Assembly (NCBI GenBank): GCA_015657535.1
Contig: JADHZB010001972.1
Location: 7,272 to 34,893 of the forward strand
Length of the DNA: 27,622 bases
Reading direction: 5' to 3'
Source: Nephromyces sp. MM_2019
Lineage: Eukaryota > Apicomplexa > Aconoidasida > Nephromycida
Below the pieces are notes generated by a model, which did not search any database, was not told the origin of the DNA, and saw only the letters and a program-made list of their open reading frames with translations. The position numbers and the translations under genes were made by a program. Every line of letters starts with the position of its first letter. Position 1 is the first letter of the stretch. Below, piece after piece: positions 637 to 22,050 of this stretch.

Positions 637-867
637 ATGATAAAAAAAATTTTTCCTTTTTGTTTTTTAATTAATTTTAAAAAATATAATACAAATAATT
701 TAAAAAATTTAACTAAATGAAATCTAATAATTTCCTCTAATTTAGATAAAATATCATTAAAATATAATTTTGAATTTTTTTTTAATCGACAAATATCAAA
801 ATTAAATATTTATCAAATTAAAAATAAATATAATTTTAAAAAAATATATATTACATTTAAAAATTAA
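637..867 (+). CDS. rpl23: Ribosomal protein L23 (large subunit), divergent
   Basis: L23 binds domain III of 23S rRNA at the exit tunnel. The 76-residue frame has one in-frame UGA (codon 28, position 718), so a standard-code scan misses it. Its C-terminal half (YNFEFFFNRQISKLNIYQIK, then an aromatic/basic tail) resembles the L23 pattern YxFxVxxxANKxxIKxAIE followed by VxVxxVxT. It sits one base after rpl4 and two bases before rpl2, exactly the L23 slot of the S10 operon. Similarity is weak, so the call leans on position. Normal L23 is 90-100 residues, so this is a short form. Confidence 0.78.
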
Positions 868-869
868 AA

Positions 870-1646
870 ATGAATTTCAATTTTAATTATAAAATTAAAA
901 ATTTAAAAATTAAATGGTTTAGATCTAATGGTAGAAATAATTTTGGTAAAATAACTAGTCGTTATCGTGGTAATAGTTATAAAACTAAATATAAAATAAT
1001 AAATTGAAATTATGCTAATTATGGTAAAGATAGTAATTCAGCTATAGTAATTTCAATTTATTATGATAAATTTAGAACTGCTTATATAGGTTTAATTAAT
1101 TATTTAGATGGTTTTAAAGCAGGTTCTTTTCAATTTATATTATTAATTAATTCATTATTAAAAAATGATATAATTACATTTAATTCAAAATATACTTATA
1201 ATAAAGGTAGTTCTAAAGCTTTAAAATATATGATCTTAGGAAGTAATTTAAGTAATTTAGAATTAACACCTAAAAAAGGATCTCAATTAGTAAAAGCTTC
1301 AGGTACAGTTGCTAAATTATTATCATTAGATAATAAATATGCTTTACTTAAATTACCTTCACAAGAATTTAGATTAATTTCAATAAATTGTTTTGCTACT
1401 TTAGGATCAATAGCATTTATTAAAAACTTAAAAAAAAAAAAAGCTGGATTTAATAAATTTTTAAATAAAAAATCTCATGTAAGAGGACTTGCTATGAATG
1501 TTTGAGATCATACTCATGGAGGTGGTGAAGGACGTACTGGAATTGGACATAAAATTAAATACACACCATGGGGTAAAGTTAAATTTAAAACTAGAAAAAA
1601 ATTAAAATATTCCAATAAATTTATATTAATAAAAAGAAAAATTTAA
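870..1646 (+). CDS. rpl2: Ribosomal protein L2 (large subunit)
   Basis: L2 is a core 23S rRNA-binding protein needed for subunit joining and peptidyl-transferase assembly. The 258-residue frame contains [14 protein letters not shown] (about 22-35, compare GRNNxGxITxRHRGGGHK), a central SH3-like part, and the signature ending [14 protein letters not shown] (about 213-226) followed by TPWGK. Two UGAs are read through: codon 46 (1005) and codon 212 (1503). The second lies just before DHTHGGGEG, where homologues read NPVDHPHGGGEG, so a stop there would delete the catalytically important end. The conserved TPWG tryptophan is TGG. The gene is compact; bacterial L2 has about 275 residues. Confidence 0.96.
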
Positions 1647-1654
1647 ATTAAAAT

Positions 1655-1873
1655 ATGAAAAAAATATTTATATCTAAAGATATTTTACGTAAATTTAAAT
1701 TAATTAAAAAAAATAAAAAGAAATTTTTACAATTTTATAATAAATCTAATATAATTCTTATATATTTTTTAAATATGATATTACATATATATAATGGAAA
1801 TAAATTTAATTTATTTAAAATTAATCAATTAAAAATAAATTATAAATTAGGATTAATTTTTACAAATTTTTAA
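1655..1873 (+). CDS. rps19: Ribosomal protein S19 (small subunit), short form
   Basis: S19 forms a head complex with S13 near the A/P-site tRNAs. The 72-residue product keeps the C-terminal pattern IYNGNKFNLFKINQLKINYK then LGLIFTNF, matching the S19 pattern (VYNGKxFxPVxIxxxMVGHKLGEFAxTRxF). The usual N-terminal WKGPF segment is reduced to a Lys-rich stretch, so the protein is about 20 residues short. It lies between rpl2 (8-base gap) and rps3 (11-base gap), the standard order. rpl22, which follows rps19 in bacteria and many plastids, is absent. Confidence 0.85.
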   Translation: MKKIFISKDILRKFKLIKKNKKKFLQFYNKSNIILIYFLNMILHIYNGNKFNLFKINQLKINYKLGLIFTNF

Positions 1874-1884
1874 ATTATTTAAAT

Positions 1885-2550
1885 ATGGCTAGAAAAATTT
1901 CTCCTCTTATATTTAGAACTAAATTTTATTTAAATTATAATAGTATTTGGAAAACTCCTTTTAAATTTAAAAATAATTTTATTTTTAATTTAAATTGAGA
2001 TATTTATTATTTTTTAAATAAATTAAAAGATACTTTTTTTATTTTTAATATAAAATTAATTTATTTTGAATTTAATATTTGTAAAATTTTTTTACAAATC
2101 TCAATTTTAAATAAATATAAATTTTATTTATCCAAATATTTATTATTAATAAATCTTTTACAAAAATTAAAACTTAATATTAATAAAAAATATTATAATA
2201 AATTTAATATTTTCTATGAATTTTTATCTTATCAATTTAAATTTAATTCTATATCATATATTTTATTTTATATAAAAATATTAATAAAAAAAAATATATC
2301 AATTAGATCTATATTAAAATTAATTTCTAAAAATTTACTAATTAACAATTATAAATTTAATAAAAAAATATATGGTTTTAAATTTAAAATTTCAGGTAGA
2401 TTTAATAATTCAGATAAATCTAAAATAGAAATTTTTAATTACGGTTCAATTCCTTTACAAACTATTTCTAATAATATTAAATATAAAATTGGAAATTTAA
2501 AAACTAAATTTGGTATTATAGGTATCAAAATTTGGATTTTTTATAATTAA
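1885..2550 (+). CDS. rps3: Ribosomal protein S3 (small subunit)
   Basis: S3 forms part of the mRNA entry site. The 221-residue frame begins MARKISPLIFRTKF (compare MGQKxNPLGFRLG) and ends with a clear S3 C domain: GFKFKISGRFN, then GSIPLQTI, then TKFGIIGIKIWIFYN (compare GIKVxxSGRLxGAE, GxIPLxTLRA, GIIGVKVWI). One in-frame UGA lies at codon 38 (1996) near the region where homologues have WxSxWFA. The alignment there is ambiguous because a TGG tryptophan (SIW) occurs nearby and may be the true WFA counterpart. The middle KH domain is hard to see through the A+T bias. The next gene is rps17, so rpl16 has been lost from this position. Confidence 0.93.
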
Positions 2551-2578
2551 AATTAAATTATTAATTAAAAAATTAAAT

Positions 2579-2827
2579 ATGTTTAATTATAAAATAGGTT
2601 ATATAATTAAAAAAATAAATAATAAATCATTAATTATTATTTATCCTTTCAAAAAAAATTATTTAAAATATAAATTAAAACTTAGTAAAAATAAAAAATA
2701 TTTTTTATTTAATATTAGAAATGAAATTAAAATTAAAGATTGGATAATTTTTAAATTAAATTATTCTACAAGTAAATTAACTTATATTAAAATTTTAAAA
2801 ATTTTTAAATTAAAATGATACAAATAG
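2579..2827 (+). CDS. rps17: Ribosomal protein S17 (small subunit)
   Basis: S17 binds 16S rRNA helices 7 and 11 early in assembly. The product starts MFNYKIGYIIKKINNKSLII (compare GxVVSxKMxKTxxV) and carries NEIKIKDWIIFKLNYSTSKL (compare NxxxxGDxVxIxExRPLSKxKxW). A UGA at 2816-2818 would end it at 79 residues, overlapping the rpl14 ATG. Since UGA is sense elsewhere here, translation should instead reach TAG at 2825-2827, adding three residues and overlapping rpl14 by 13 bases. No other gene in the window would end in UGA, which favours the longer reading. Confidence 0.85.
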
Positions 2828-3180
2828 GTTCTTATTTTAATATTTTAGATAATAGTGGTGTAAAAAAAATTTTATGTATAGGAATATTAAATTCTAAAAA
2901 ATTTAAGATTAAATTGGGAGATTGAATAATAGGTATTGTTAAAGTTTGTAATAAAAAATCAATTATAAAAAAATCTGTTATTATTAAAGCAATTGTTATA
3001 AATTTAAAAAATTCATTTTTGTTTAAAAATGGATTAATTATTAAATTTAAGTCTAATTCAGCTATATTAATAGATAATAATTTTAATCCTTTAGGTACTA
3101 GAATATATGGAATTTTACCTAAATTTATTTTTCATAAAAATTATTTAAAGTTAAAATCACTTTCTTTTGAGTTGATTTAA
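2815..3180 (+). CDS. rpl14: Ribosomal protein L14 (large subunit)
   Basis: L14 sits at the intersubunit interface and contacts 16S helix 14. The 121-residue product is full length. It opens MIQIGSYFNILDNSGVKKIL (compare MIQxxTxLxVADNSGAxxxxCI), has the central GD-IIGIVKV strand, NPLGTRIYGILPKF (compare xPxGTRIFGPVxREL) and ends LKSLSFELI (compare KIxSLAxEVL). One UGA is read through at codon 37 (2923), at a position that is Ile/Val in homologues. The ATG overlaps the end of rps17, which suggests coupled translation. Confidence 0.95.
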
Positions 3181-3207
3181 TAAATTATTAAATAATAAAT
3201 AATTATA

Positions 3208-3567: not shown

Positions 3568-3572
3568 AAATT

Positions 3573-4121: not shown

Positions 4122-4129
4122 TATTCTAT

Positions 4130-4813
4130 ATGAATTTAAATTATTTTATAAAAAAAAATTTCTTTAATTTAAAGATATTAATTTTAATATTAATAAAATT
4201 TAATTATAATAGTTATATGTTATTAATATTAATAATTACTTTCTTTAAATTGTTAAATTATTTATTTATTATTAAATTTTTATATTATTTAAAAAATTAT
4301 ATATATTTATATAATAATTTATTTAATTTTTTAATTTTTAATAATTCTTGAAATTATAAAAATAAAAAAAATTTAAAAAATGTTTTTATTAAAACTATTA
4401 AATATAAAATTATTGATATTAAAAAAATTTCTAAAACTTCTAAAAAAGGTAGACTTAAAAAATTTTGAATTATTTTAGTCATAGGTAATTATTCTGGTTG
4501 GTTTGGAATTGGAATTGGAAAAGATTATTATTTAAATGAAGCTTTCTATAAAGCTTATTTAAAAGCTTTTAAAAATATTTATTATTTAAATATTAATAAA
4601 TTAAAAATTTCTAATAAATTTCATTTAATCAAATATAAAAAAGCTAAATTTTTAATAAAATCTAAAATTCAAAATTATCATATTTTATCTTGAAATACAT
4701 TAAAATTTATTTTAGACTTATCTGGTTATAAAAATATAACTTGAAAATTATTAGGTTCTAATAATAAATTAAATTTAATAAAAGCTTTTGTTAAAAATTT
4801 TTGTTTAAATTAA
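4130..4813 (+). CDS. rps5: Ribosomal protein S5 (small subunit), with four in-frame UGA codons
   Basis: S5 lines the mRNA entry tunnel and affects decoding accuracy. The 227-residue frame reads through UGA at codons 74, 113, 188 and 205 (4349, 4466, 4691, 4742). The S5 core appears after the first UGA: KKISKTSKKGRLKKF (compare VxKVxKGGRxxxF), IILVIGNYSG then GIGIGK (compare VVVGDxxGxVGxGxGKA), LKFILDLSGYKNI (compare xRxVLExAGIxDI) and KLLGSNNKLNLIKA (compare KxxGSxNxxNxVxA). Homologues have Ser, Gly and Ala/Thr at the three alignable UGA positions. The first 70 residues are hydrophobic and unconserved; read alone they would look like a membrane protein. Confidence 0.93.
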
Positions 4814-4852
4814 ATTCTAAAAAACTAAATTATATTCATTAAATTTTTTATA

Positions 4853-4966
4853 ATGAAAATACGTTCAAGTTTAAAATTATTTTGTGTAAAATGTAAAAAA
4901 GTACATAGAAGAAATAAATATATGATAATTTGTATAAATCCTAAACATAAACAAAAACAAAAATAA
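4853..4966 (+). CDS. rpl36: Ribosomal protein L36 (large subunit)
   Basis: A 37-residue, full-length L36, the small zinc-binding protein of the 50S subunit. It starts [20 protein letters not shown] and continues through a third Cys and a His ([11 protein letters not shown]), giving the C-x2-C-x12-C-x4-H zinc ribbon of L36. All three cysteines are TGT. Its TAA stop overlaps the rps11 ATG (TAATG). Confidence 0.96.
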
Positions 4967-5364
4967 TGAATTATTGAAAAAATTTTAAGAAAAAAATAAT
5001 AAATTTTTATATAAAATCAACTAATAAAAATACTTTTATTAGTTTATTTGAACTTAATTATAAAATAATTAAATTAATTAAAATCTATTCTTTTGGTAAT
5101 ATTGGTTTTAAAAAAGGTCGTTATAAAAATACTCCTTTTTCAAGTACTTTTTTAATATCAAAAGCTGTAAAAAAAGCCTTAAAATTAAATTATACTCATG
5201 TTAATATTATATTTAATGGAAATTTTCTTTTACAAAGACAAATTCTTTTAAAAACAATTTTAACTATTAATTATAATTTTAAAAATTTAAAATTAAATAT
5301 AATTATAGATAAAACTTCTTTATCATTTAATGGATGTAAAAAAAGAAAATTTAAACATTTTTAA
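4966..5364 (+). CDS. rps11: Ribosomal protein S11 (small subunit)
   Basis: S11 forms the platform near the mRNA exit and E site. The 132-residue product has IYSFGNIGFKKGRYKNTPFS (compare WSSxGxxGFKGxRKxTPxAA), SKAVKKALKLNYTHVNIIFN and the end IDKTSLSFNGCKKRKFKHF (compare DVTPIPHNGCRPPKRRRV). UGA occurs at codon 4 (4975), in a variable N-terminal part. The ATG overlaps the rpl36 TAA by one base, suggesting translational coupling. The rpl36-rps11 order is that of the bacterial alpha operon, with rps13 missing. Confidence 0.95.
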
Positions 5365-5375
5365 TAAATTTTATT

Positions 5376-5738
5376 ATGTTAACTAAAAATCAACTTTTAA
5401 AAACAAAAAGAAAAAAAAATATATTTTGAAAAAAAACTATTTTATTTAAAAAACCACAACGTAAAGGAATCTGACAAAAAATTTTTACTATGGCTCCTAA
5501 AAAACCTAATTCTGCTTTAAGAAAATGAGCAAAAATTAAATTAAATAATAATCTTGAAATTATAGCTTATATACCAGGTGAAGGATTTGCTTTACAAGAA
5601 CATAATATAGTTTTAATAAGAGGAGGTAAGGTAAAAGATTTACCTGGTGTTCATTATCATATTATTAGAGGTTCTAAAGAAGTTAAAGGTGTAAAAAATA
5701 GAAAAAGTAGTAGATCTAAATATGGTGTTAAAAAATAA
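5376..5738 (+). CDS. rps12: Ribosomal protein S12 (small subunit)
   Basis: S12 is the decoding-centre protein whose loops contact A-site mRNA-tRNA. The 120-residue product is highly conserved: [51 protein letters not shown] and [11 protein letters not shown]. Three UGAs are read through at codons 18, 33 and 51 (5427, 5472, 5526). Codon 33 lies in QRKGI-UGA-QKI, where bacterial and chloroplast S12 have the near-invariant Cys of RGVCTRV; codon 51 follows SALRK, where homologues have Val. The classical streptomycin-sensitive residues are present (Lys in TMAPKKPNS and in GKVKDLPG). The 3' end overlaps rps7 by 17 bases. Confidence 0.97.
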
Positions 5739-6159: not shown

Positions 6160-6184
6160 AAAATTTTATTAAAATAGTTTATTC

Positions 6185-7420
6185 ATGAAACGTGAAATTT
6201 TTAATCGTAATAAACCACATATTAATATAGGAACTATTGGTCATGTAGATCATGGTAAAACAACATTAACATTAGCTTTAACAAATATTTTATCTTTATA
6301 TGGTTATTCAAAATGTTATAATTATACTGATATTGATTCAGCACCTGAAGAAAAAGCAAGAGGAATTACAATAAATACAGCTCATATTGAATATGAAACT
6401 AAAACTAGACATTATGCTCATATTGATTGTCCTGGACATGCAGATTATATTAAAAATATGATAATAGGAACTACACAAATGGATGGGGCTATTTTAGTAG
6501 TTTCTGCTATAGAAGGACCTATGCCTCAAACACGTGAACATTTATTATTAGCTAAACAAATAGGTATTTCATCAATAATAGTTTTTATTAATAAAATTGA
6601 TCAAGTAGATGATTTAGAGCTTTTAGAATTAGTAGAATTAGAAATTAAAGATCTTTTAAAAGAATATGGATTTTTAAATGAAAAAATTAAATGTTTAAAT
6701 GGTTCTGCTATAAAAGCTTTAGAATATATAAAAAATATTAAAAGTTATAATTATGGAGATAATAAATGGGTTGATAAAATTTTAGATTTATTAAATTATA
6801 TAGATACTTATATACAAGCTCCTATTAGAGATATAGATAAATCTTTTTTAATGTCTATTGAAGATGTATTATCAATTACAGGTAGAGGTACTGTTATTAC
6901 AGGATGAATAGAACGAGGAAAAATTAAAATAGGAGATACAATTCAAATTTTAGGTTTTGGTAAATGTTATAATAGTACTATAATAGGTATAGAAATGTTT
7001 AAAAAAACTTTAGAAATAGGTCTAGCAGGAGATAATGTAGGTTTATTATTAAGAGGAGTACAAAAAACTGATATTAAACGTGGTATGATTTCAGCACAAT
7101 TTAATACTATTCATTTAATTTCTAAATTTACAGCTGATATTTATATTCTTAAGTCAAATGAAGGAGGTCGTACTAAACCTTTTTTTGAAGGTTATAAACC
7201 TCAATTTTATTTTAAAACTACTGATATTACAGGTACTATTACTAAAATTTATAAATTAAATTCTAAAATAGAACAACTTTCTATGGTTTTACCAGGTGAT
7301 ATGATAACTTTAGAAATTAATTTATTATATTCAATGGCTATTGAAAAAGGAATGAATTTTGCTATTAGAGAAGGTTGTAAAACAATAGGTGCTGGTATTA
7401 TAACTAATTTAATTAATTAA
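6185..7420 (+). CDS. tufA: Elongation factor Tu
   Basis: EF-Tu delivers aminoacyl-tRNA to the plastid ribosome in a GTP-dependent cycle. The 411-residue product has all G motifs: GHVDHGKTT (residues 19-27), the switch region with [26 protein letters not shown] (about 80-92), NKID (about 136-139) and GSA. Domain 2 contains [10 protein letters not shown] then UGA at codon 241 (6905) then [10 protein letters not shown]; bacterial EF-Tu usually has Arg there (TGRxERG). Domains 2 and 3 end with [20 protein letters not shown] and [18 protein letters not shown] (compare REGGRTVGAGVV), where the normal Gly-Gly is Gly-Cys. Plastid EF-Tu is the target of kirromycin-class drugs. Confidence 0.99.
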
Positions 7421-7427
7421 TAATCAA

Positions 7428-7583: not shown

Positions 7584-7587
7584 ATTT

Positions 7588-7659: not shown

Positions 7660-7692
7660 TTATTAATAAATTAATTTATTATATATTTTAAA

Positions 7693-7766: not shown

Positions 7767-7782
7767 GAATTTAATTCTAAAA

Positions 7783-7853
7783 ACGCTTTTAGTTTAAAGG
7801 TAAAATATTAGTTTCCAAAACTTTATGATGAAGGTTCAATTCCTTCAAAGCGT
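7783..7853 (+). tRNA. trnW: tRNA-Trp (CCA)
   Basis: A cloverleaf with acceptor ACGCTTT/AAAGCGT, D stem GTTT/AAAT, T arm GAAGG-TTCAATT-CCTTC, and anticodon loop TTCCAAA giving anticodon CCA. The anticodon stem (TTAGT/ACTTT) has two U-U oppositions at 27:43 and 28:42. A CCA anticodon reads only UGG by normal wobble. That matters because UGA is used as a sense codon here: unless C34 is edited or modified, this tRNA cannot decode it. Confidence 0.9.
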
Positions 7854-7892
7854 GAGGTTATTAAATTATTTTTATAATAAAAATTTTAACAA

Positions 7893-8312: not shown

Positions 8313-8349
8313 AATTTTATTTTTTATAAAAAAATTTAACCTATTATTT

Positions 8350-10578
8350 ATGATTTTATATAATTCTATGAATAAAATAAATTTCTTTTGTACAAAAGAA
8401 ATTTATTTTATTTTATTAAAAGCAGAATATTTAGCTATTAAATATAATAGTTATTATATTGAACCTATTCATATTATATCATCTTTATGTTTAACTAAAA
8501 ATTTATTTTCTTTTTTATTTTTAAATAAAACTTTAAAAATAACAAAAATAATTAATTTTATATTAAATGAAATAAAATTTAAAAATTATCAATTTTCTAA
8601 ATTTAAATTATTTTCAATCAAATCTTTAAATTTATTAAGTAAAATTATAAATAAACAGAGATTTTTTAATTCGATAGATTTAATATGTTATTTAATTAAA
8701 GAAGATAATTTATTAGTTAATAAATTAATTTCTAAGTTACACTTAGAAAAAATTTTTATTTTAAAAAATTTAAATAATTATATTAAAAATTTAAATTTAC
8801 AGCAATTAAATATATTTAATAATTATACTAATTTAAATTTATTTGATAATATATCTAATTTAATAAATAGAGATGATGAAATTAATAATATTATTAAAAT
8901 ATTAATAAAACGATTTAAATCTAATCCTTTATTAATAGGGGAAATTGGTACAGGTCGTCGTTCTTTAATAAAATTACTTTTTAAAAAATTAAAATTTAAT
9001 AAAATATCAAAAATACTAAAATTTAAAGAAATAAGAATTTTAGATATATTTAATTTATTAATAAATATAAATAAAACTGATTTGGATTATCAATTTGATT
9101 TATTAATTAAATCATTAAAAAATTATAATAATTTAATTTTAATATGTTTTGATATTGAATTATTTTTTAAACAAAATGATAATTCTAATTATACTAATTT
9201 TTTAAAAAAAATACTTGAATTAAAATCTATTCAAATAATTGGAATTACAACCCCAAAAAATTATAATCAAATTTTAAAAACTAATTATATTATTAATAAT
9301 TTTTTTGAAACTCTTTTTATACCTGAACCTAATGAAATTCAAACCTTTGAAATTTTAAAACAATGATCAAAAGAATTAATTCAATATCATAATATTAACT
9401 TATTACCTAAAAATTTAAAAGAATCTATTATTTTAAGTAAAAAATATTTAAAATTTAAAGTTTTTCCTTTAAAAGCTTTAGAAATCTTAGATAGAGCTTG
9501 TATAAAAGGAATTGAAAAAAATAATCAATTAAAAACAATTAATACATTAGAAATTAAGGAAGCTATATCAGAAGTATCAGGAATACCTAAATCTATTTTA
9601 ATACAAAATGAGAATATTAATAAAAAGTTAAACTTATTAGAAACTGAATTAAAAAAAAATATTTATGGACAAGATCAAGCATTAATAAATATTAATACAG
9701 CTCTTAAAAGAACATATACAGGATTAAAACAATTAAATCGTCCTATAGGGAGTTGGATTTTTTGTGGGCCTAGTGGTACTGGAAAAACTGAATTAGCTAA
9801 AATTATTTCTAAATTATTATTTGGATCTATAAAAGAACTTATAAAATTTGATATGAGTGAATTTATGGAAAAACATTCTATTTCCAGATTAATAGGATCA
9901 CCTCCTGGTTATATTGGATATGGAGAAGGAGGACAATTAACAGAAGCTATTAATAAAAAACCTTATAGTGTTATTTTATTTGATGAAATTGAAAAAGCTC
10001 ATGAAGATATTAATAATTTAATGTTACAAATTTTAGATGATGGAATTTTAACTGATTCTACTGGAAAACAAATAGATTTTTCTAATACTATAATTATATT
10101 TACAAGTAATTTAGGATGTCCTAAAAATCCAAATGAATTTAAATTTTTTGAAGAAGGTAAAATCTTAACTAAAAATAGTTTTAATTCTTTAAATTTAAAA
10201 ATTAAAAAAGCAATTAATAAACATTTTAAACCTGAATTTTTAAATCGTATAGATGAAATAGTAATTTTTAATCCTTTATCTATAGAAATTTTAGTTTTTA
10301 TAACTGAAAAATTTATTAATAATTTACAAAACCAATTAATTTTAAATAAATCTTCTATTTTAATTTCTGTAGATTCAAATGTTAAACATTTTTTAGCTAT
10401 ATGATCTTATCATCCTTTTTATGGAGCTAGACCTTTAAAAAAATTAATAGAAAAATTAATTGAAAAACCTTTAAGTGAATTATTATTAAATTTAAATTTA
10501 ACTAAAGATTCTTATTTATTATCTTTTATTTTTGATAAAAATTCAAAAGAACTTACATATTCTATAAAAAAAATTTAA
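8350..10578 (+). CDS. clpC: ClpC-type AAA+ chaperone (Clp/Hsp100)
   Basis: A 742-residue class I Clp ATPase that unfolds substrates for ClpP or helps move imported proteins in the plastid. Residues 15-150 resemble the Clp N domain. D1 begins near LINRDDEINNI, but its Walker A is GEIGTGRRSL (197-206), with the catalytic Lys and Thr replaced by Arg, and its Walker B Glu is Ile (FDIELFF, about 267-273). D2 is intact: GPSGTGKTE (473-481), FDMSEFMEKHSISRLIGSPP then GYIGYGEGGQLTEAI, LFDEIEKAH (543-551) and the arginine-finger region FYGARPLKK. UGA is read at codons 339 and 685. It ends near trnG and looks co-transcribed with rpl11. Confidence 0.96.
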
Positions 10579-10588
10579 TATTATTTAA

Positions 10589-10695: not shown

Positions 10696-10917
10696 ATGAA
10701 AAAAATTTCAATAAGAAAAAATAAATATTCATTAAAAAATAAATTTATTAAAAATAAAAATCTTTTATTTAATAATTTAATTTTTTATAATAATAATTTT
10801 AACATATTCATTATTAATTATAAATATTTAATTAAATTAGTAAAATTAAATTATTCTATTAATAAAAATTTAAATAGATTTATTATCAAATCTATTAAAA
10901 ATTCAATTAATTTTTAG
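10696..10917 (+). CDS. Unidentified 73-residue basic ORF
   Basis: A Lys/Asn-rich product (starts MKKISIRKNKYSLKNKFIKN, ends NRFIIKSIKNSINF) bounded by ATG and TAG, without UGA. High basicity and position among ribosomal-protein and tRNA genes suggest a very divergent small ribosomal protein, but no family motif can be recognised; S20, L33, S14, L29 and S16 patterns were considered and do not fit. Its TAG overlaps the first base of trnS, so tRNA processing would release the mRNA 3' end exactly at the stop. Confidence 0.45.
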   Translation: MKKISIRKNKYSLKNKFIKNKNLLFNNLIFYNNNFNIFIINYKYLIKLVKLNYSINKNLNRFIIKSIKNSINF

Positions 10918-11047: not shown

Positions 11048-11347
11048 ATGATTATAATAAAAAAAAAACAAAAATTTTTAAAAGCAGGGTTTTTATCATA
11101 TAAACATAGAAAAAATAAAATTAAATTAAGAAAAAAAAATAATTTAAATAATCTTAATAAACTTTTAAAGTGAAAAATTCATTATAAATATTCATATTGG
11201 AAAAAAAATTTATTTAATTTATCTATAAATTTAAATTTAATATATCAATATTATATTTTATTAAATATAACATTTTTTGAATGTTTAATATTTAAAAGAG
11301 ATCTAAAATTTAATTCTATTTTAATAAATATTCTAAAAATAATTTAA
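11048..11347 (+). CDS. rpl20: Probable ribosomal protein L20 (large subunit)
   Basis: A 99-residue basic product with one UGA (codon 42, 11171). It has a Lys/Arg-rich N terminus (KKKQKFLKAGFLSYKHRKNK, compare the L20 start RGxxARKRRKKxLKxAKGFxG), a central YKYSYWKKNLFNLSI (compare YAYRDRRxKKRxFRxLWI) and a C-terminal LLNITFFECLIFKRDLKFNS (compare IxLNRKxLAxLAxxDxxxFxxLV). The order of the three segments and total length fit L20, an early 50S assembly protein. Each match is weak, so this is a probable call. It converges on rps2 with a 15-base 3' overlap. Confidence 0.6.
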
Positions 11348-12040
11348 TTTTAAATATTTTAATTTTCCATGTATTAAAGATGTTACTATTATTTCTAAAA
11401 TATATTTAATACATAAATAATTTTTATTATTACCTGGAATAGGTATATGAATAATTTCAGGAATACTATTTGTATCTACTATACTAATTATTATTTTTTT
11501 AGAATTTATTGCTTCTTTTAAAGCTATTAATTCTCAATTAAGATTTATAATAAATAAAGTATTTGGAATAAAATTAATAAATTTTAAATTTTTAAATTTA
11601 AAATTAAGTTTATTAAAAATTTTTAATAAATTATTAAACTTTTTTAATTTTAATAATTTATAGAATTTTAAAAATTTAATAATTTTTTCAAACCAATATA
11701 ATAATAATATATTATTTTTAATAATATTCCAATTAGTAATTAATCCTGCAATCCAAGAATAATTTATATAATATTGATTTGATATTATAGCTGATTTTTT
11801 TATTAAATTTTGAGATAAAAATTTAGAATCTATAAATAAAATTTTATTATCATATAAACTTAATTGATATAAAAAAATATAACAATTAATTAAATATTTT
11901 GCTGTTTGAATTAAATCAATAATTAAATTATGATTTATAATTTTATAAATAAATTTATAATTTCTAGGATCCCAATTTTCTAATTTAGATCCTATATAAA
12001 TTTTATTTTTAATTAAAGTTTTTAATGTAAATAAAATCAT
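11333..12040 (-). CDS. rps2: Ribosomal protein S2 (small subunit)
   Basis: S2 completes 30S assembly near S1/mRNA exit. The 235-residue frame starts MILFTLKTLIKNKIYIGSKL then ENWDPRNYKFIY (compare LLEAGVHFGHxTxxWNPKMxxYIF), and has IDLIQTAKYLINC, ILFIDSKFLSQNLIKKSAII, YINYSWIAGLITNW (compare WLGGxLTNxxTI) and, after UGA at codon 169 (11536), ELIALKEAINSKKIIIISIV then DTNSIPEIIHIPIPGNN (compare xIAIxEAxxLxIPVxAIVDTNxxPxxIDYxIPGNDD). Truncation at the UGA would remove this conserved last third. It ends in TAG within the rpl20 3' end and is the last gene of the rpo block, 11 bases after rpoC2B. Confidence 0.95.
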
Positions 12041-12051: not shown

Positions 12052-13491
12052 TTATTTTTTATTAAAATATCTATACCAACCAGAACCTGATGGTATTAAA
12101 TCAGATATAATTAATTTAGTTTTTATATTTGTTAACCAATCTATTTTATTTTCTAAAGAAGATTTAATTAACATTTTAATTGTTTCTTGAAAACTTATAG
12201 AAGTAAAAAAACCTGAATAAGCTAAAATAGAACGAGATATTCCTAATATAATAGGTTTATATAAACTACTTTTATATTTATGAAAATTATTAGCTAAATT
12301 AATAAAATGAACTAAATTAAAAGGTAAAATTTCAAATAAATTAAAAGTTGTATTTCCATTATTAATAATTTTTACAAATGAAGTCATTTTTTTTACTATT
12401 AATTCAAAATGAATTAAAGGTAATTTAATATTATTATTTAAATATTGTTTAATTAAAGATTCTATAATAATATTTTGTATAAAATTAAATGTACTTTTAG
12501 AAGCTAAATATTGATTATTTTTAATATATAAATTATTATATTTAATATTTAAAATTAATTGAGGATTATAATTTCCTAGACTTAATATAGAACCTATTTC
12601 ATAAATAGAACTTATTTGACTTAAAGTTAATATCGATTTATTAGATAAATTAATTAATCAGTTTAATAAGTTTTGTTCATTATATATTATAAATTTATTT
12701 AAAAATATAAAATTATTATAAATTAAATTTGTTGTTTTAAAAATTAAATTTCCTTTTTCCATAATTAAATAATTATATTTTTTTCATTTATTTTCAAAAA
12801 TTGTATCTATTATTTGTAAACCATAAGTTATATCTTCAGCTTTTTTAGAAACTTTATAATTAGAAAATATATTATGTAAAGAAGTATTTAATTTACTTAT
12901 AAAAAAATTGAATATATTATTTTTAATTAAATATAATTTTAATTGATTAATAATTTCTTTAGTTAAAGGTGAATTATTAGTATTTATATAATTTATTATA
13001 TTAATTTTTTTATTAAAAATATATTTATGTAAAACTTGAATTAAATTTGTTTTTTTTATTGTATAAGGAAGTTTTAAATTATCAAAAAAATTAAATTTAA
13101 TTTTTTTAAAATTTTTAAATGAAAAAATTTTAAAATTTTTTCATTCAGTTATAATATATTTATTTTTTTTTATTTTGAATAATTTAAATTTATTCTTTTT
13201 GTAAATTATTTCATGGTAATCAAAAATTTTATTTTTATAACATATATAATTATTATTTTTAAGTAATAATTTTTTAAAAAATTTATAATTTTTTAAAAAA
13301 TTATTACTTTTAAATATATATTCAGAATTAAATAATAATTTAAAATTTATTTTTAATTTTAATATATATTTATAAATATAAAAATTTTTTAATAATATAA
13401 AAAAAATAAAATTATAATAAGATTTTAATTTTAAAAATTTAATTTTATGATTTAAATTTTTATGATTTAATTGATAAACTAAATATAGCAT
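12052..13491 (-). CDS. rpoC2B: RNA polymerase beta'' subunit, C-terminal part
   Basis: The second half of the plastid beta'' subunit (C-terminal half of bacterial beta'), 479 residues. Recognisable near the end are AEDITYGLQIIDTIFE (compare GEDITQGLPRVEELFEAR), LIHFELIVKKMTSFVKI (compare KHIExIVRQMxSKVxI), ILGISRSILAYSGFFTSISF then QETIKMLIKSSLENKIDWL (compare LLGITKASLxTxSFISAASFQETTxVLxxAAIxGKxDxL), and LIPSGSG (compare LIPAGTG). UGA occurs at codons 117, 236 and 278. An in-frame UAA lies just upstream of the ATG (13498-13500), so this is a separate reading frame from rpoC2A. The N-terminal third is unconserved. Confidence 0.93.
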
Positions 13492-13528
13492 TATTTGTTA
13501 TTTAATAAGATAATGTTAATTAAAATTA

Positions 13529-15142
13529 TTATCTAATTTTATATTTATAAATAAAATAATTATTAGTTAGTTTTATTTGTAAAAAAGAAATTTTAGATAT
13601 AAAATTATTATAAATTTGTAAAAATTTATAATAATTATTTAAATTATTTAATATTAAATTTTGTTTATTATATATATTATAACTATATAATTCATTAATA
13701 TAATACATATTAGTATTAATACTTTTTAAAATCCAATTTTTTGATGTATTTTTAAATAACAAATAAATTAATTTATTTGTTAAAATTTGAGAAATATTTT
13801 TATTTATTAAATAATTTTTTAAAGAAGTTTTAAACTCAAAACGAGTTGATTTAAATTTTATAAATAATAAAATTTGATATGATTTATAAATTAAATTTAA
13901 AAATTTATTATTATAAAAATTAAGTTTTAATTTTATTTTTTTTATATAATTATATAAATTTTTAAATTCAAAAAAATTATTAAATTTATTTTTTTTTAAA
14001 TAAGAACTATATTTTAATAATCCAAAAGTAGAAAAATTTAATAAACTAAAATTTATTTTTTTTATTTTATATAGATTATTTTTAATTATATAATTCTTAT
14101 ATAATAAAAAATTATAATTTAAATTCATATTTTTTTTTAAATTTAAAAAAACACCACCAGTATGAAATGTTCTTAAAGTTAATTGAGTCCCTCTTTCTCC
14201 TATAGATTGTCCTGATATAATACCTATTGAATTTCCTAAATTATTATTAATCCCAAAACATTGATTTCAAAAAGTTCTTCCTGAATTACAATTATTAATA
14301 GTTTTTAAAAATAATTTTAATTTAAATTTAAAAATTTTTTTTAATAAATTTTTATTACAAAATCCTTTTGTGATATAAGATTGTTTAAATAAAATAGATT
14401 TAAATAAATAAAAATAAAAATATTTTCCAATAAAATAATTATTATTTAAATAATTTAAACTACCATTTATATTTAAAATTTTATAAATATATGAAAATGA
14501 TTTAGATTGACAATTTTCTTCTTTAATAATCATATCTCTTCCTATTTCTACTAATCTTCTAGTTAAATAACCTGAATCAGCTGTTTTTAAAGCTGTATCT
14601 ATCATTCCTTTACGAGCACCATAACAAGATATAAAAAACTCATAAGTTTTTAAACCTTTACCAAAATTTTGCATAATAGGAATTTCATATAAAAATCCTT
14701 GAGAATTTGATAAATAACCTCTAAAACCAATAATTTGACATATTTGAGACCAATTAGATCTAGCTCCTGTATTAGACATTAAATGTAATGAATTTGAAAT
14801 AGGATTAATTATTTTATAAGTTTCTAATAAATTAAAATATTTTTTAAATAAAATTTGACTTTTAGTACTTTTTTCGAAAATATAAAAATTTGATAAAAAA
14901 GAATTAGACCATAAATAAATTAATCTTAAATTTTCTTTATTTTTTAAAATCGAAGTTAAATAAAAATAACTTTTTGTACTATCTAAATTTAAAGAAAAAG
15001 AATATTTTGATGAATATTCAAAACCTAAAAACATTAACTCTTGAATAAATTTTAAACATGTATCAAAATAAAAATATTTTAAAATATTATTTTCTAATTT
15101 AAGTTGATTAAAACCTGAATTTAAAATAGAAGAAAAGTTCAT
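13529..15142 (-). CDS. rpoC2A: RNA polymerase beta'' subunit, N-terminal part
   Basis: The first half of beta'' (537 residues), holding bridge-helix and trigger-loop elements: [40 protein letters not shown] then [20 protein letters not shown] (compare [30 protein letters not shown]), and [20 protein letters not shown] then FHTGGV. A zinc site is visible: Cys211, Cys285, the UGA codon 292 (14269-14267) and Cys295 in a C-x6-UGA-x2-C-F-G arrangement, matching C-x6-C-x2-CYG of homologues. It ends in UAA (13529-13531). Its ATG lies two bases after the rpoC1 stop. The conserved Pro of QSIGEPGTQ is Arg. Confidence 0.96.
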
Positions 15143-15144
15143 TT

Positions 15145-16878
15145 TTAATTAAAATTTAAGTTTTTATTTAAAAAAATTCTACCGGTATTAATTAAAATAA
15201 AATTTGTTAATTGATAATTTTGATTTTTAGTATATTTAAATTTAATCCAAATTAAATCTTTTAAATTAATTAATTTATTAATATAAGTATAAATAATATC
15301 AAATTCATTAATAAAAAAAATATTAGAATGTAATAATAAATTAAAATTATTTACTAATGTATATATACCTAAAATAATATTTTGAGAAAGTTGAAATATA
15401 TTTTTATTATTTGAAGGTGAAATTAAATTTTTATCAAATAACATTTTAGTTTTAGATTCATATTGACTTATTTTTGAAATAGGTAAAAAAATACCCATTT
15501 GATCACCATCAAAATCTGCATTGAAACTAGAACAAGCTAAAGGAAATAATCTTAATGAATTATTTTCAATTAAATAAGGTTTAAATGCTTGAATATTCAT
15601 TCTATGTAATGTAGGAGCTCTATTTAATAAAATAATTTTTTTTTTTAAAATATTTTTTAAAATTTGCTTAATAATTAGTAATTTATATTCAAGTAAATTA
15701 TTAAATTTAAAAATAGTTTTTAATGTTTTATTTAATTGAAAAATATTTAATAAAATAGGATTCATTAAATTTAATGCTAAATCAAAAGGTAATCCTATTT
15801 TATTAAAAATTAAATCAGAACCAGAAACAATCACAGATCGACCTGAAAAATCAACTCGTTTACCTAATAAATTATGTCTAAATCGTCCAAATTTTCCTTT
15901 TAATATAGTTGATAAAGATAAATTAGGACGAGATTTCAATTTTTCTTTAATTAATAAAGTATTATCTAATAATTCATCTATAGCTTCTTGTAACATTCGT
16001 TTTTCAAAAATTTCAAATAAAATAGGTAATGTATTTCTTAAAGCAATCCAACGATTTAATCTATTATTTCTTATAATTATTTTACGATATAGATTATTAA
16101 TATACGACATAATAAACATATTATTTTCATTTAATTTATAAAAAGGTCTTAAATTGGGAGGTATTATCGGTAATAAATTTAAATAAATCCATTCTAATTT
16201 AATATTACTTATAAAAAATAGATGTAAAATTTTAGCTTTTTTAGTTAATTGTTTTAATTCTAAATTATTTTTTTTATATAATATTAATTCTCTTCATTTA
16301 TTTAATTCAAATAATATATTTAAATTTTTAAGAATTTTTTGAATTAAATAATTAATAAAAATTAAATAAGAATAAGTTATATTTTTATTTTTTAAATTTA
16401 TATTAGTAAATAATTTTTTAAAAGAAAAATTATTTTTTTGAATAAAAAAATCTTTATAATATATAAAACGTTCTATTTGAGTTATCGATATATTTAATAA
16501 AGTAGATAAAATTTTTCCAAAGCCTTTTAAATACCAAATATGTAAAATAGGAGTTTTTAATAAAATATAACCCATTCTATATCTTCTAATACGAGAATCA
16601 TTTAATTCATAACCACATTTATAACAAATCATACCTGGTTTAATTAAATTTAAATAATTTTTATTATATAAATTACAATAACATTTCCAAGAATTTAAAG
16701 GACCAAAAATTTTTTCTCAAAATAAACCATTTTTTTCATAAAAACCTTTTTTAAAATTAATAGTTAAAGGTTCTGTAATTTCACCTTTAATAAAAATTTT
16801 ATTAATTTGTCTAGTAGACCATTTTATAATTTTCTCAGGAGAAATTAAACTAATTTTAAAAATTGGAATAAAATTCAT
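15145..16878 (-). CDS. rpoC1: RNA polymerase beta' subunit
   Basis: The catalytic plastid beta' subunit (577 residues). N-terminal zinc ribbon: Cys66, Cys68, Cys85, Cys88 (WKCYC and ICYKCG). Further on are RIRRYRMGYILLKTPILHIW, LLPIIPPNLRPF, NNLYRKIIIRNNRLNRW, KGKFGRFRHNLLGKRVDFSG then RSVI, LLNRAPTLHRMNIQAF and the metal-binding NADFDGDQMGIF with Asp455, Asp457 and Asp459. Two UGAs are read: codon 54 (16719) in GLF-UGA-EKIFGP, where bacteria and chloroplasts have Cys (GLFCxRIFGP), and codon 195 (16296). It lies 34 bases after rpoB and two bases before rpoC2A. Confidence 0.97.
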
Positions 16879-16912
16879 TTTAAATTATAAATAATTAAAT
16901 TATTATTAAAAT

Positions 16913-19900
16913 TTATCTATAAAAAGGATTAATTAAAAAAGATTCTATATTTAAAGCTAACCCTTTAATTTCATTTAAAACTAAACGAAAGGATTCAGAA
17001 ATAGTTGTTAAAATTAAAGATTTATTATATAATAAATTATCTTGAATATTAAGTCTAGACTCAATATCATCTGATTTAATATTTAATAATTCTCTTAAAT
17101 TATAAGCAGATCCAAAAGCTTCTAAAGCCCAAACTTCCATTTCACCAAATCTTTGACCTCCTTTTTTAGATCGACCTTTAATAGGTTGTTGTGTTATTTC
17201 TGAATAAGGTCCTATAGTTCTATAATGTATTTTATTTTTAACCATATGAATTAATTTTGTATATAAAGAACAACCAAATAATGTAGATCCTTTTAGTTTA
17301 TAACCAGTACGACCATCTAAAAGAGATATTTTACCTGGTAAATAAGGATTTAAAATAGAAGAAATACCAGATTTTAAATTAATTTGTTTTAAATTATTAT
17401 ATCAAAATGATTTTATTAAATTAAAATTATATTTTTCATTAATATTTTTATCTATTAATAATCTTTTATCAAGATAAAAACAACTAATACCAAATAAAGC
17501 TTCAAATAATTGTCCTAAATTCATTCTAGAAGGTATTCCTAAAGAACCTGTAATAATATCAGGTTTTAAAAAATCTTTTGTATAAGGTAAATCTACTTTA
17601 TTAGCTATAAATGAAATAACTCCTTTATTTCCATATCTACCTCAAATTTTATCTCCTATTTCTAATAATCTTTGTTTTATTATAATTATTCTAATTTTTA
17701 AAAAAATATTTTGAGAAATTAATTTTTTATCAAGAAAAAGTTCTATTTTAATTACTCTACCTGAATTTCCAGATGATATTAAAATAGATTTATCAATAAT
17801 ATTTTTTAATCTAGTACCAAATAATATAAATAAAAAATTTTTTAATGATTCTTTTTTTATATTAATATTATTTAAACTAATTTTAGAAATAATTAAATCA
17901 TTTTCTAAAACTTTAGAACCTTTTTTAATTATTCCAAAAAAATCTAAATTTCTTTTATTAAATTTACTATATTTAGGAATTTTAGAAAAAATAAATTCAG
18001 GGATTAATTTATCAAATAAAAGTAATGTTTCATATATATCCATATGTAAAGATGAAAAAACATTTTTTTCTATAAGTTGCTTATTAATAATTATAGAATC
18101 TTCATAATCATAACCTAAATAAGAACCATACATAATAAAAATATTATTACCTATACAAAATTCATTTTCAATAAAATCTTGATTAACAGCAATAATTTGT
18201 CCTCATATCACTCTTTCTCCTATCCAAATAATAGGTTTAAAATTTAAAATTATTCCTTGATTTGAAAAGTTATAATTTTTTAAAAAATAAGTAATTTCTC
18301 TATTAAATAAATCACGAATTATAATTTTATAAGAAGATATATATATAACTATACCTTCTTGAAATCAATTGATAATATTAATATTTTTTCTAGAAATTAT
18401 TTGTTCATAACCTGTAAAAATAAAAGGTTTTTGTTTATAAATTAAAGGTATAGATTGAGATTGCATTTTTGATCCTATTAAACATCTAGCAGGGTCATTA
18501 TGAAACATAAAAGGAATTAAATTTTCAGAAGGAGAAAATAAATTTTTATCATTTAAATTAAATTTAATATTAGAACTAGTAGTTTTAAAAAAACTATTTT
18601 CAATTATAGTAATAGTAAATTTATTAAAATTTAAATTTTTTCTTATAAAAAATTTATCTAGTGATAATTGTATTTTATCTTGAGATAATGAATTTAAAAA
18701 ATTAATATTAAATTTTTTATTTTCTTTATTTTTAAATTTATAAGGAGTAATTAAAATATTGTTTTTTGTTTTAATAATATTATTAGGTAATGAAACTATT
18801 AAGCCACTATTTAATCCCTCACTAGTATCAATTAAACATAATTTACTAAATTCACTATATTTAATATCTCTAATATTTAAATTTTTTTTTGAAAAAGTTT
18901 CTTTATTTAATTTTAATTTATGTATAATTTCAGATAATGAATTAATTTGATCTAAATATTGAACAAAAGGATTAATATTTAAATATTCTTTAAAATTTAA
19001 AAAATTTTTATTATTATTTATTAATTTAATTAAATTTTTACTTGTTAAATTTAAATTAAAAAATTTAATTAATTTATATTTAAATTTATTTACTTTATAT
19101 TCTAACATAAATTCAAGATTTTCAAATAATATAGTATTAAAAGATTCTATTTTTTTATATCCAAAATGATCTAAATTAATAAGTGATTTTTTTTTTAATT
19201 TTAAATCTAATAAAATATCAATAATACTAATTAAATCTTTTGATAAATAAATAGATTGATTTCTAAAATCAAAACCAAATAAATTAAATAATTTATTTTT
19301 AACTATTGAAGTTGTTAAATTAAAACAATTATTAAAATTAATTATATTATTATTAAATTTTTCAAATTCAAAATTTAAAATAAAAAATGTTAAAGAAATA
19401 TTAATAAAAAATTTAAAATATTTAAATAAATTATAAGAAATATGAATATAAGATTTAAAACTATTTTTTAATAATTGTCTAAAAATTAAAGTATTTCCAT
19501 ATTTTGAAAATTTGATTAAAGTATTATTAGTTATACCTATAAAATGAAGAAATAAAATAAAGTTAATTTTTATTTTATGTTTATTATCATATATAAAAAT
19601 TGAATTATATTTATTTATTTCTATAAATAATTGATAATAATTATTTAATTTTATACAAACTAGATAAAATATATTATTATATTTAATTTTTTTAGCAAAA
19701 TAAATACCTTCATTTCGTTTAATTTTAGATAATAAAGTTCTTTTTAATCCATTTAAAATAAAATTTTCTTGAAAATCTAATTTAGGAAATTTAATTAAAT
19801 TCAAATTAAAAATATTATATTTATTAATTTTAATTGAATAAAGTAAAACAGAAATTTTTATTTGTAAAAAAGGACTTATTTTTAATAAATTATGTTCTAA

Positions 19901-20098
19901 AGAAGAATTATTATATTTTGTTATATTAATTTGTAAACTATTCGAATAAAATAATAGTTTAAAATAATTTTTAAAAAATATTTGTTTAGGGATTAAAATA
20001 TTAATTTTTTTAATTAATTTATATTTTAAAAAATTAATATAATAACTAGATAAAATTTCAGTATTTTTTAAAGAAAAAGGTAATATAGAATAAAGCAT
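16913..20098 (-). CDS. rpoB: RNA polymerase beta subunit
   Basis: The catalytic beta subunit, 1061 residues. Seen in order: FILNGLKRTLLSKIKRNEGI then YF (compare FIINGxERVIVSQLxRSPGVxF); the rifampicin-pocket region VQYLDQINSLSEIIHKLKLN (379-398); LCLIDTSEGLNSGLI (compare ICPIETPEGPNIGLI); FHNDPARCLIGSKMQSQSIP; LGYDYEDSIIIN (compare GYNFEDAI); GDKI-UGA-GRYGNKGVIS (compare GDKxAGRHGNKGVxS); LPGKISLLDGRTGYKLKGST; and IGPYSEITQQPIKGRSKKGG then QRFGEMEVWALEAFGSAYNL. UGA is at codons 578, 632, 819 and 899. The lobe domains between about 135 and 375 are A+T-degraded. Confidence 0.97.
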
Positions 20099-20136
20099 TA
20101 AAATATGAATTTTAAATTAATTTTTATTAATTATAA

Positions 20137-20418
20137 TTAAATTTTAAAATTTTTTATTTGAGGTGAATTTAAAGATATTAAAAATTTAAGTTCATTTTTA
20201 ATTCAAATTTGATTATTATTTTTTTTAAATTGTAAAAATAAACCTTTAATTTCTTTTAATTTAAATTTTTTATTTTCATAAATTATTAAATTAAATTTTC
20301 AAGATTGATTAGATTTTAATTTAATTAAATTCAAAATATAAAATTTTAAATTAAATAAAGTTTTTTTTAATTTAAAAAATTTTATTTTATTTAATTTATA
20401 TATATAATTATTAGTCAT
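20137..20418 (-). CDS. Possible ribosomal protein L19
   Basis: A 93-residue frame with UGA at codons 40 and 72 (20301, 20205), invisible under the standard code. Its C-terminal end KLKEIKGLFLQFKKNNNQI, one UGA, then IKNELKFLISLNSPQIKNFK resembles L19 (FEGVVIxxxGxxxxxTFTVRxxxxGVxVERxFPLxSPxIxxIxV), notably the EIKG turn and the LNSPQIKNFKI end. The N terminus is basic and unconserved. It lies five bases after the upstream gene and 38 before rpoB, so it is probably real. L19 is my best reading, but another ribosomal protein is possible. Confidence 0.45.
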
Positions 20419-20423
20419 AAAAA

Positions 20424-20633
20424 TTAATTAATTATTAAAAATTTATATTTAATAAAAGAATATATACTTAAAATTCTAAATTGTTTAATAATTTTTATTA
20501 AAATATTATATTTTTTTCTATTATATTTATTTAAATTAGAATTTTTTAGTTTAAAAGATTTTGTTAAAAGTGTTTTCAAAATTATATTTTTTTTTAAAGA
20601 AAAATTATGTAAATATTTTTTATTTTCTCTCAT
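20424..20633 (-). CDS. rps18: Probable ribosomal protein S18 (small subunit)
   Basis: A 69-residue basic product with ATG one base after the sufB stop. The segment ILKTLLTKSFKLKNSNLNKY then NRKKYNILIKIIKQFRILSI and YSFIKY follows the S18 pattern (xLLxxFISxxGKIxPRRxTGLSxKxQRxLTxAIKRARxLALLPFxxK), ending at the expected point. S18 packs against S6 on the 30S platform. Length and charge fit (chloroplast S18 is 70-100 residues). The GKIxPRR motif is degraded, so this remains probable. No UGA occurs. Confidence 0.55.
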   Translation of the reverse strand: MRENKKYLHNFSLKKNIILKTLLTKSFKLKNSNLNKYNRKKYNILIKIIKQFRILSIYSFIKYKFLIIN

Positions 20634-20634
20634 T

Positions 20635-22050
20635 TTAACCTAAAGATTCTTCAGTTCTTAATGAAATTAATAAAGGTACTTCTGCTCCGAATTCAATTGG
20701 TAAATTTTCACAAATATTAAAACAAAATCCATAAATTAAAAGTGTAATTGCTTTTTTTAATGTAATACCTCTTTGTAATAATAAAAATAAATATTCTTCA
20801 TCAAGTTTTGAAATAGTTGCTTCTTGTTTAATTATAGCTGTAAAATTAAAAATTTTTGTATATGGAATTGTAGAAGTTAAAGCTTCAGACCCTATTAAAA
20901 GAGAATCTCATTCAGTTTGATTTATTGAATTAAAAGCTTTAATTCCTATTTCAACTAAACCTCTATAAATATTTAAAGATGAGTTTAATGAAATACTTTT
21001 AGAAATAATTTTACTTTTTGTATTAGATCCAAAATGAAACATTTTACCCCCAGTATCAGCTTCTTGAAAACCTGATAATAAAGATACAGAATAAAATTCA
21101 CTAGAGGAATTAAAACCTAATAAAATTGTTGAAGGATATTTCCAAGTTAAAGCAGATCCCATTTCAATTTGAGTCCATTCTAATCTAGAATTTTCCATAC
21201 AAACACCTCTTTTAGTTGTTAAATTATATAAACCACCTTCACCAATTTGATTTCCTCTATACCAATTTTGTATAGTAGAATATTTTACAATGCTTTGATT
21301 TTTTCAAATAATTTCTACAACAGCAACATGTAATTGTGATTCATTATAAAAAGGTGCTGTACAACCTTCTAAATAAGTTACTTTGGAATTATTAGCTGCT
21401 ATAATTAAAGTTCGTTCAAATTGAGCAAAATTTTCAGAATTTGTTCTAAAATATGTAGATAAATCAAATTCACAATAAGTATCTTTTGGTATATAACAAA
21501 AAGAACCTTCACTAAAAACTATAGAATTTAAAGCTGAAAAAAAATTATCCCCTATAGATATAATAGTTCCTAAATAACGTTTAATTAAATATGAATATTT
21601 TTTTATAACTTCAAATAAAGGTAAAAAAAGTATTCCAGATTTTAATAAAAATGGAGTTATAGTACTTATAATTGAAATACTATCAAAAACAATATCCATT
21701 GCTACATTAGTTATATTATTTTTATTTTCCATAGATAATCCTAATTTTTCAAATGTATTTTCTAATTTATTTTTAATAACTTTATTTGAAATATTTAAAG
21801 GAGCTGAATAATAAAAAATTTTATCATAATTTATATCAGGATTTTCAAAAAAACACCAATCCGGTTGTCTTAATGTTTTTAATTTATATAAAGCTTCAAT
21901 TCTAAATTTTTGAATAAAAATAGGTTCTTTTAATTTATATATAATTTTTTTTATTGTAAAAAAATTTAAACCTCCTTTAATTTGTTCACTTTTAATATTT
22001 GTTTTAAAACCATATTTATAAGGTTTATTTAATAATTGTTTAAAATTCAT
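20635..22050 (-). CDS. sufB: Fe-S cluster scaffold protein SufB (ycf24)
   Basis: SufB works with SufC and SufD to build Fe-S clusters for apicoplast enzymes such as IspG and IspH. The 471-residue product has RQPDWCFFENPDINYDKIFY then YSAP, VFSEGSFCYIPKDTYCEFDL, YLEGCTAPFYNESQLHVAVV (Cys230), KYSTIQNWYRG, GGLYNLTTKRGVC, LEWTQIEMGSALTWKYPS and the C-terminal LLLQRGITLKKAITLLIYGF. UGA is read at codon 249 (21306) and codon 381 (20910). The latter is in TE-UGA-DSLLIG, aligning with E. coli Cys405 of TQCDSMLIG. The EHEAT segment (Glu432, His433 in E. coli) reads KQEAT here. It heads the rpo block. Confidence 0.97.

Follow-up and report, generated by a model that had tools for sequence, protein, structure and literature searches.

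Does an in-frame UGA in the apicoplast of Nephromyces sp. MM_2019 specify tryptophan (Trp), as annotated for coccidian apicoplasts, or cysteine (Cys)? The question is raised by a window of 27,622 nucleotides (bases 7272-34893 of contig JADHZB010001972.1, from the 48.3 Mb assembly GCA_015657535.1), which represents the apicoplast genome and carries the large- and small-subunit ribosomal RNA genes, 14 transfer RNA (tRNA) genes, ribosomal protein genes, tufA, clpC, rpoB, rpoC1, a split rpoC2 and sufB. Judging from the sequence, we put at roughly 0.8 the probability that UGA is a sense codon in this apicoplast and is read mainly as Cys; the usual reading as Trp is probably wrong here. Cys is the best reading because UGA occurs in frame, is not found among the stops of the ORFs (open reading frames) checked, falls on four invariant Cys columns and stays off conserved Trp columns, and because the proportion of UGA to UGU looks like any A/T pair, whereas that of UGA to UGG does not look like an A/G pair.

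A first-pass annotation of the window, made from the letters alone, had counted 33 in-frame UGAs in 18 genes. Our recount reached the same total, with 32 UGAs in 17 open reading frames (ORFs) of the main set and one more, codon 42, in the ORF at 11048-11347; a UGA upstream of this ORF, inside trnS, was left uncounted. The earlier statement that all other stops are UAA or UAG was also borne out. Among 25 ORFs, 22 end in TAA and 3 in TAG, rpl36 and ORF 11048-11347 likewise end in TAA, and a UGA stop was found in none of the 27 ORFs checked. An exception may be the rps17-like ORF (2579..2827, +; signs denote the strand of the window), where UGA codon 80 (2816-2818) shares letters with the start codon of rpl14 in an ATGA (2815-2818), and two further codons and a TAG come after it. 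The ATGA is possibly a relic of a UGA stop of rps17, and codon 80 may serve, or may once have served, as a stop. Two other UGAs are weak evidence in the same way, in that they may not be internal: codon 4 of rps11 (4975-4977; gene 4966..5364, +) sits at the start, possibly upstream of the true one, and codon 74 of rps5 lies in an N-terminal extension. None of the three is among the 24 columns scored below, and rps17-80 and rps11-4 were not used as evidence.

The residues that homologues carry at UGA positions were scored in a masked column test. A search of 78 cyanobacterial genomes gave an rpoC1 match in 73, and 24 genomes were taken on, with sufB from 23 of them and the operon loci from 20. 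For each of 21 genes a profile was made from 13-24 sequences, with duplicates merged. All UGA, Trp and Cys positions of the query were masked before alignment, which kept the alignment from leaning towards any one answer. Profiles covered 16 of the 18 UGA-bearing ORFs with 30 UGAs, 24 in match columns and 6 outside; three more UGAs lie in ORFs without homologues. Scores are log-odds (nats) summed over columns for each of the 20 amino acids, and a column was called conserved when one residue made up at least 80%. The clpC homologue set may mix ClpC and ClpB, and the rps17 and rpl23 homologues were chosen by gene order. The columns were also read from MAFFT alignments; in the MAFFT run with diverse bacteria, rpoB had only gaps at its UGA columns, rpoC1 was represented by one locus and rpl23 by none.

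Over the 24 UGA columns Cys scored +8.2 and ranked first; Ala had -1.3, Val -1.5, Lys -3.1 and Arg -5.6, and Trp was 17th of 20 with -15.7. Full column scoring thus upheld the earlier proposal that UGA behaves as Cys and not as Trp, and Trp was not enriched at UGA columns. In the same run TGG was decoded as Trp (+54.0, 26 columns) and TGT as Cys (+57.3, 41 columns). Of the 30 sense codons that had 15 or more columns, 28 were decoded correctly, ATT and ATA giving Val. When 24 columns were resampled 2000 times for each of these 30 codons, Cys came first for TGT only. Bootstrapping placed Cys above Trp in all 10000 site replicates and in 99.99% of gene replicates, and first overall in 79.7% and 82.5%, respectively.

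Conserved columns gave the same picture. Those for Cys (33 columns) are occupied by 18 TGT, 4 TGA and 11 other codons, so that TGA stands on such a column in 4 of 24 cases, compared with 11 of 4780 for codons other than TGT and TGA (Fisher p 6.3e-7). Those for Trp (36 columns) hold 16 TGG, 20 other codons and no TGA (0 of 24, compared with 16 of 26 for TGG; p 1.2e-6). This agrees with the earlier observation that no UGA clearly replaces a conserved Trp and that family-conserved Trp residues are written TGG, examples being codons 23, 96 and 104 of rps2 and codon 217 of rps3. Codon 38 of rps3 (1996-1998; gene 1885..2550, +), however, which had been thought ambiguous for Trp, shows no sign of it: the position lies outside the profile and is opposite Glu in 20/20 sequences by MAFFT. 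In the MAFFT repeat with 30 UGA columns, Trp was among the top three residues in none, and four columns were Cys. The same repeat gave Trp at 18/30 TGG columns and Cys at 18/52 TGT columns.

The four UGAs on invariant Cys columns are exactly those that the first-pass annotation had picked out. In rps12 (5376..5738, +), codon 33 (5472-5474) is opposite Cys in 18/18 sequences of the cyanobacterial profile and at 33/35 diverse bacterial loci (MAFFT), and in 5/5 of the PDB alignments listed, although the query carried Trp there. Codon 292 of rpoC2A (14267-14269; gene 13529..15142, -) meets Cys in 16/16 profile sequences, at 8/8 diverse bacterial loci and in 5/5 of the PDB alignments listed, again with Trp in the query. 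The gene has TGT at codons 211, 285 and 295, all of them invariant Cys columns, and we take Cys 211, 285, 292 and 295 together to be a zinc site. In rpoC1 (15145..16878, -), codon 54 (16717-16719) is the invariant Cys of GLFC, found in 20/20 profile sequences and, with Cys in the query, in 5/5 of the PDB alignments listed. Codon 381 of sufB (20908-20910; gene 20635..22050, -) corresponds to Cys405 of E. coli SufB. It is Cys in 22/22 profile sequences and, with Trp in the query, in both SufB PDB chains, and Asn in two SufD chains. Cys405 is described as the final sulfur acceptor and an iron-sulfur (Fe-S) ligand (PMC6006206).

Codon usage points in the same direction. The window is 81.8% A+T, and its 25 ORFs contain 32 TGA, 30 TGG, 53 TGT and 0 TGC codons. 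In the two-fold A/G pairs the share of A is 0.978 for AAR, 0.957 for GAR, 0.981 for CAR, 0.985 for TTR and 1.000 for AGR, and in four-fold boxes about 0.90-1.00; for TGA/TGG it is 0.516. The argument that UGG should have drifted to UGA in so A+T-rich a genome, had both meant Trp, therefore holds, since a UGA:UGG ratio of 32:30 is set against 96-100% A in five pairs. At conserved columns, A:G is 112:4 for Lys, 85:7 for Glu, 43:0 for Gln and 62:0 for Arg (AGR), but 0:16 for Trp. As one of an A/T pair, UGA is unremarkable: the share of A is 0.15-0.46 in nine boxes, and TGA/(TGA+TGT), at 0.38, equals ATA/(ATA+ATT), at 0.38. On conserved Cys columns TGA makes up 4/22 (0.18), and seven other A/T comparisons at conserved columns give about 0.13-0.45. 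Codons with a zero count in the 25 ORFs include TGC, AGG, ACG, GCG, CTG, CGC and CGG.

Several observations weigh against reading UGA as Cys. Cys owes its lead to four columns. Once these are removed, Lys comes first (0.0), with Ala at -1.0 and Val at -1.4, and Cys drops to 11th (-5.0), with Trp still 17th (-12.8). The same kind of removal put Cys in 5th place when TGT was scored and Trp in 14th when TGG was, and the drop is therefore partly due to the test itself. At +8.2, UGA scores lower than every 24-column TGT sample (2000 samples, minimum 17.9), so that UGA is not quite UGU-like. In addition, TGA accounts for 4/22 of TGA+TGT on conserved Cys columns and for 32/85 overall (p 0.04). Three of the 24 columns are Arg (tufA-241, rps5-113, rps2-169) and two are Lys (rps12-18, rpoC2B-236), residues ill-suited to Cys, and at three others (rpl2-46, rpoC2B-278, rpl23-28) Trp is a slightly better match than Cys. 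When the columns are summed with BLOSUM62, Ala (3) edges ahead of Cys (2), and Trp is next to last (-52). Furthermore, trnC is not among the 14 tRNAs of the window, the other 7271 bases of the contig reading N, and judging by exon matches an RF2-like (release factor 2-like) gene probably exists in the nuclear genome.

The sites that fit poorly are well defined. In tufA (6185..7420, +), codon 241 (6905-6907) stands on an invariant Arg (20/20 in the profile; Arg 76 and Lys 4 of 80 by MAFFT) and fits neither Cys nor Trp. Codon 113 of rps5 (4130..4813, +) is opposite Arg in 20/20 sequences, and codon 169 of rps2 (11534-11536; gene 11333..12040, -) falls on an Arg/Lys column (Arg 22/24). Codon 18 of rps12 (5427-5429) is Lys in 17/18 sequences of the cyanobacterial profile, and codon 236 of rpoC2B (12052..13491, -) is Lys in 16/16. 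The misfits listed earlier are real: the profiles give Arg at tufA-241 and rps2-169 and Val/Glu/Arg at clpC-685, and MAFFT alone gives Leu at clpC-339. That list had omitted rps5-113, rps12-18 and rpoC2B-236.

The Arg columns at three UGAs and the RF2-like nuclear gene leave room for ambiguous decoding. UGA, released from its role as a stop, would then be decoded by near-cognate tRNAs for Cys, Arg and Trp, yielding mainly but not solely Cys, and selection would keep it mostly at tolerant sites. Trp, Arg and Cys tRNAs have been described as near-cognate readers of UGA (PMC6438450). The low Cys score relative to all TGT samples, the Arg-column UGAs of tufA, rps5 and rps2 and the apparent retention of an RF2-like gene are consistent with such a mixture. 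Yet a mixture should be costly at the Fe-S-ligand position of SufB, and at the invariant Cys of rpoC2A that stands beside three others. Moreover, TGT also falls on two invariant Arg columns of its 41, so Arg columns are no clear mark of UGA, and one C-to-T substitution turns CGA into UGA. We therefore consider ambiguous decoding unlikely.

Reading UGA as Trp would correspond to table 4, the code annotated for coccidian apicoplasts, with tRNA-Trp(CCA) reading UGA via relaxed pairing. Trp is the published assignment in Coccidia, Piridium, Chromera and corallicolids (PMC6722601). The same is said of Digyalum, Siedleckia and Selenidium and of one Rhytidocystis (PMC6733595), and in Cyclospora 14 genes contain 20 such TGAs (PMC4495940). 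The Nephromyces plastid resembles the coccidian and Chromera plastids in belonging to the apicomplexan lineage, in its in-frame UGAs and in using UAA and UAG as stops, but differs in that its UGA columns give Cys and all 16 of its conserved-Trp codons are UGG. Three of the 24 columns do fit Trp slightly better, but the summed scores of Trp and Cys are far apart, and in the MAFFT alignments Trp appears at UGA columns at only 2/37 diverse bacterial loci, at rpl2-46, where 34 have Phe (codon 46, 1005-1007; gene 870..1646, +). Pedinophyte mitochondria, which do use UGA as Trp, have UGA:UGG ratios of 62:2, 66:3 and 131:27 and possess trnW(uca) (PMC12574857); a trnW with this anticodon occurs in several organelles with such a code. 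In view of the conserved Trp columns, which carry TGG and never TGA, and the A share of 0.52, Trp is effectively excluded for this genome. RNA editing of UGAs before translation under a standard code would suit the three Arg columns, where a U-to-C edit, for instance, would yield CGA. It is nevertheless very improbable, since the columns of Cys, Ala, Val, Gly and Arg could not all be served by a single edit type, Cys needing A to U or C, and the Plasmodium rpoC2 frame is not mended by editing (PMC6733595).

If UGA is Cys, which tRNA reads it? The tRNA-Trp gene of the window (trnW, 7783..7854, +) has the anticodon CCA, as first reported, and the anticodon UCA is found in none of the 14 window tRNAs. 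An apparent U11-A24 pair in the D-stem of trnW was considered as a hint of a UGA-reading tRNA-Trp and dropped, as ordinary chloroplast trnW also has this pair. The likely reader would be the plastid tRNA-Cys, with an expected anticodon GCA, for which UGA is near-cognate. Chloroplast tRNA-Cys(GCA) is reported to stimulate UGA read-through (PMC8394491), and PMC8394491 and PMC8877259 cite Urban and Beier 1995 for UGA suppression by this tRNA. This proposed decoding step, a plastid tRNA-Cys with modified A37 acting on UGA, would be the same in Nephromyces; the chloroplast case, however, is stop read-through, and here up to 33 UGAs are intragenic. The isopentenyl modification of A37 that is reported for chloroplast tRNA-Cys could help the reading of UGA, and the IPPT (MiaA-type) family has one match in the nuclear genome. 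Under A+T pressure UGU would drift to UGA, and changes of the CGA to UGA type may have added UGAs at former Arg sites.

Such decoding would also require that the reaction of RF2 at UGA be lost or outcompeted. Loss of RF2 was initially expected; RF2-like exon matches on contig C13 spoke against this, with 33.2, 22.7, 22.5, 21.5, 20.4 and 19.3 bits for prfB and 22.7, 20.5 and 19.2 for prfA. The gene on C182 appears to be RF1-like (release factor 1-like), with 75.9, 47.2, 45.5 and 37.5 bits for prfA and 47.5, 28.3 and 23.4 for prfB. All these scores are for single exons and lie below the whole-protein cut-offs of the models. Organellar release-factor-like pieces were located at C13:8633-11469 (RF2-like), C182:51166-52523 (RF1-like), C568:84947-86508 (undecided) and C549:29990-30103 (RF2 model only).

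UGA is Cys in the euplotid nuclear code (NCBI table 10), for which the standard tRNA-Cys(GCA) may suffice. In both systems UGA would join UGU as a Cys codon, although the euplotid code is a ciliate nuclear code with eRF1, whereas an organelle with bacterial-type release factors is concerned here. We tentatively suggest that UGA means Cys in Nephromyces and perhaps in other apicoplasts annotated with UGA as Trp. Plastids would then have an equivalent of the Euplotes code that arose through an unchanged tRNA-Cys(GCA), with no new tRNA. No proposal of UGA as Cys in apicomplexan or related plastids was found in the literature searched, a scope that excluded most subscription papers. If true, this would to our knowledge be the first organelle code with UGA as Cys. 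Near-cognate decoding by a tRNA already present may then suffice for reassignment, and protein records of this apicoplast, and perhaps of its relatives, would carry wrong residues at sites that matter for function, the Fe-S ligand of SufB among them. In Trentepohliales chloroplasts UGA and UAG have been suggested to encode Arg (PMC8692980). There, too, a plastid stop-to-sense change was inferred from conserved columns, and three UGAs here lie on Arg, but the amino acid is another one and UGA is also still a stop in those algae. UGA is treated as an in-frame stop in PMC3932168 and is given as a true stop for Babesia microti (PMC4184790) and Eleutheroschizon (PMC6733595).

The remaining UGAs fall on a variety of columns. 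In the profiles, rpoB (16913..20098, -) has them at codons 578 (Ser), 632 (Ala), 819 (Ala 16/16) and 899 (Val), rps5 at codons 188 (Gly) and 205 (Ala) next to the unscored codon 74, and rps12 at codon 51 (5526-5528, Val). In rpl2, codon 46 is opposite Phe in the profile as well and codon 212 (1503-1505) opposite Val (19) or Cys (1); codon 249 of sufB (21304-21306) is opposite Ala, and codon 195 of rpoC1 (16294-16296) opposite Leu. Codon 37 of rpl14 (2923-2925; gene 2815..3180, +) stands on a variable column (Val/Gln/Lys/Arg). In rpoC2B, codon 278 is opposite Tyr and codon 117 was unscored; in clpC (8350..10578, +), codon 685 lies within the profile and codon 339 outside it. Codon 28 (718-720) of the rpl23-like ORF (637..867, +) is opposite Tyr by profile and Arg by MAFFT. 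Four ORFs have no Pfam match (20137-20418, 20424-20633, 10696-10917 and 11048-11347), and two of them contain UGAs, all unscored: the ORF without homologue at 20137..20418 (-; codons 40 and 72) and that at 11048..11347 (+; 99 amino acids), which holds the 33rd UGA.

Gene content has some peculiarities. Apicoplasts usually carry rpl16 between rps3 and rps17. Here there is no room for it between these genes (2550-2579), and it was not recognised among the listed ORFs; the rps17-like ORF itself has no Pfam match and was named by position and weak similarity. Because rpl16 was not found, and in view of the A+T content of the window, the label 'coccidian' is not established for this plastid. The plastids of E. 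tenella (79.4% A+T, without rpl23) and Cyclospora (78.0% A+T) do not match it, although these values are for entire plastids and the 81.8% is for the window. The rpl23-like ORF (Pfam L23, E 0.11) lies between rpl4 and rpl2; rpl23 is marked absent in Toxoplasma and Eimeria in a table of PMC3932168. A scan of viral contigs with rpoC1 gave, among the best 80 of 177 relatives, identities of 26-31%, and these were taken as viral polymerases.

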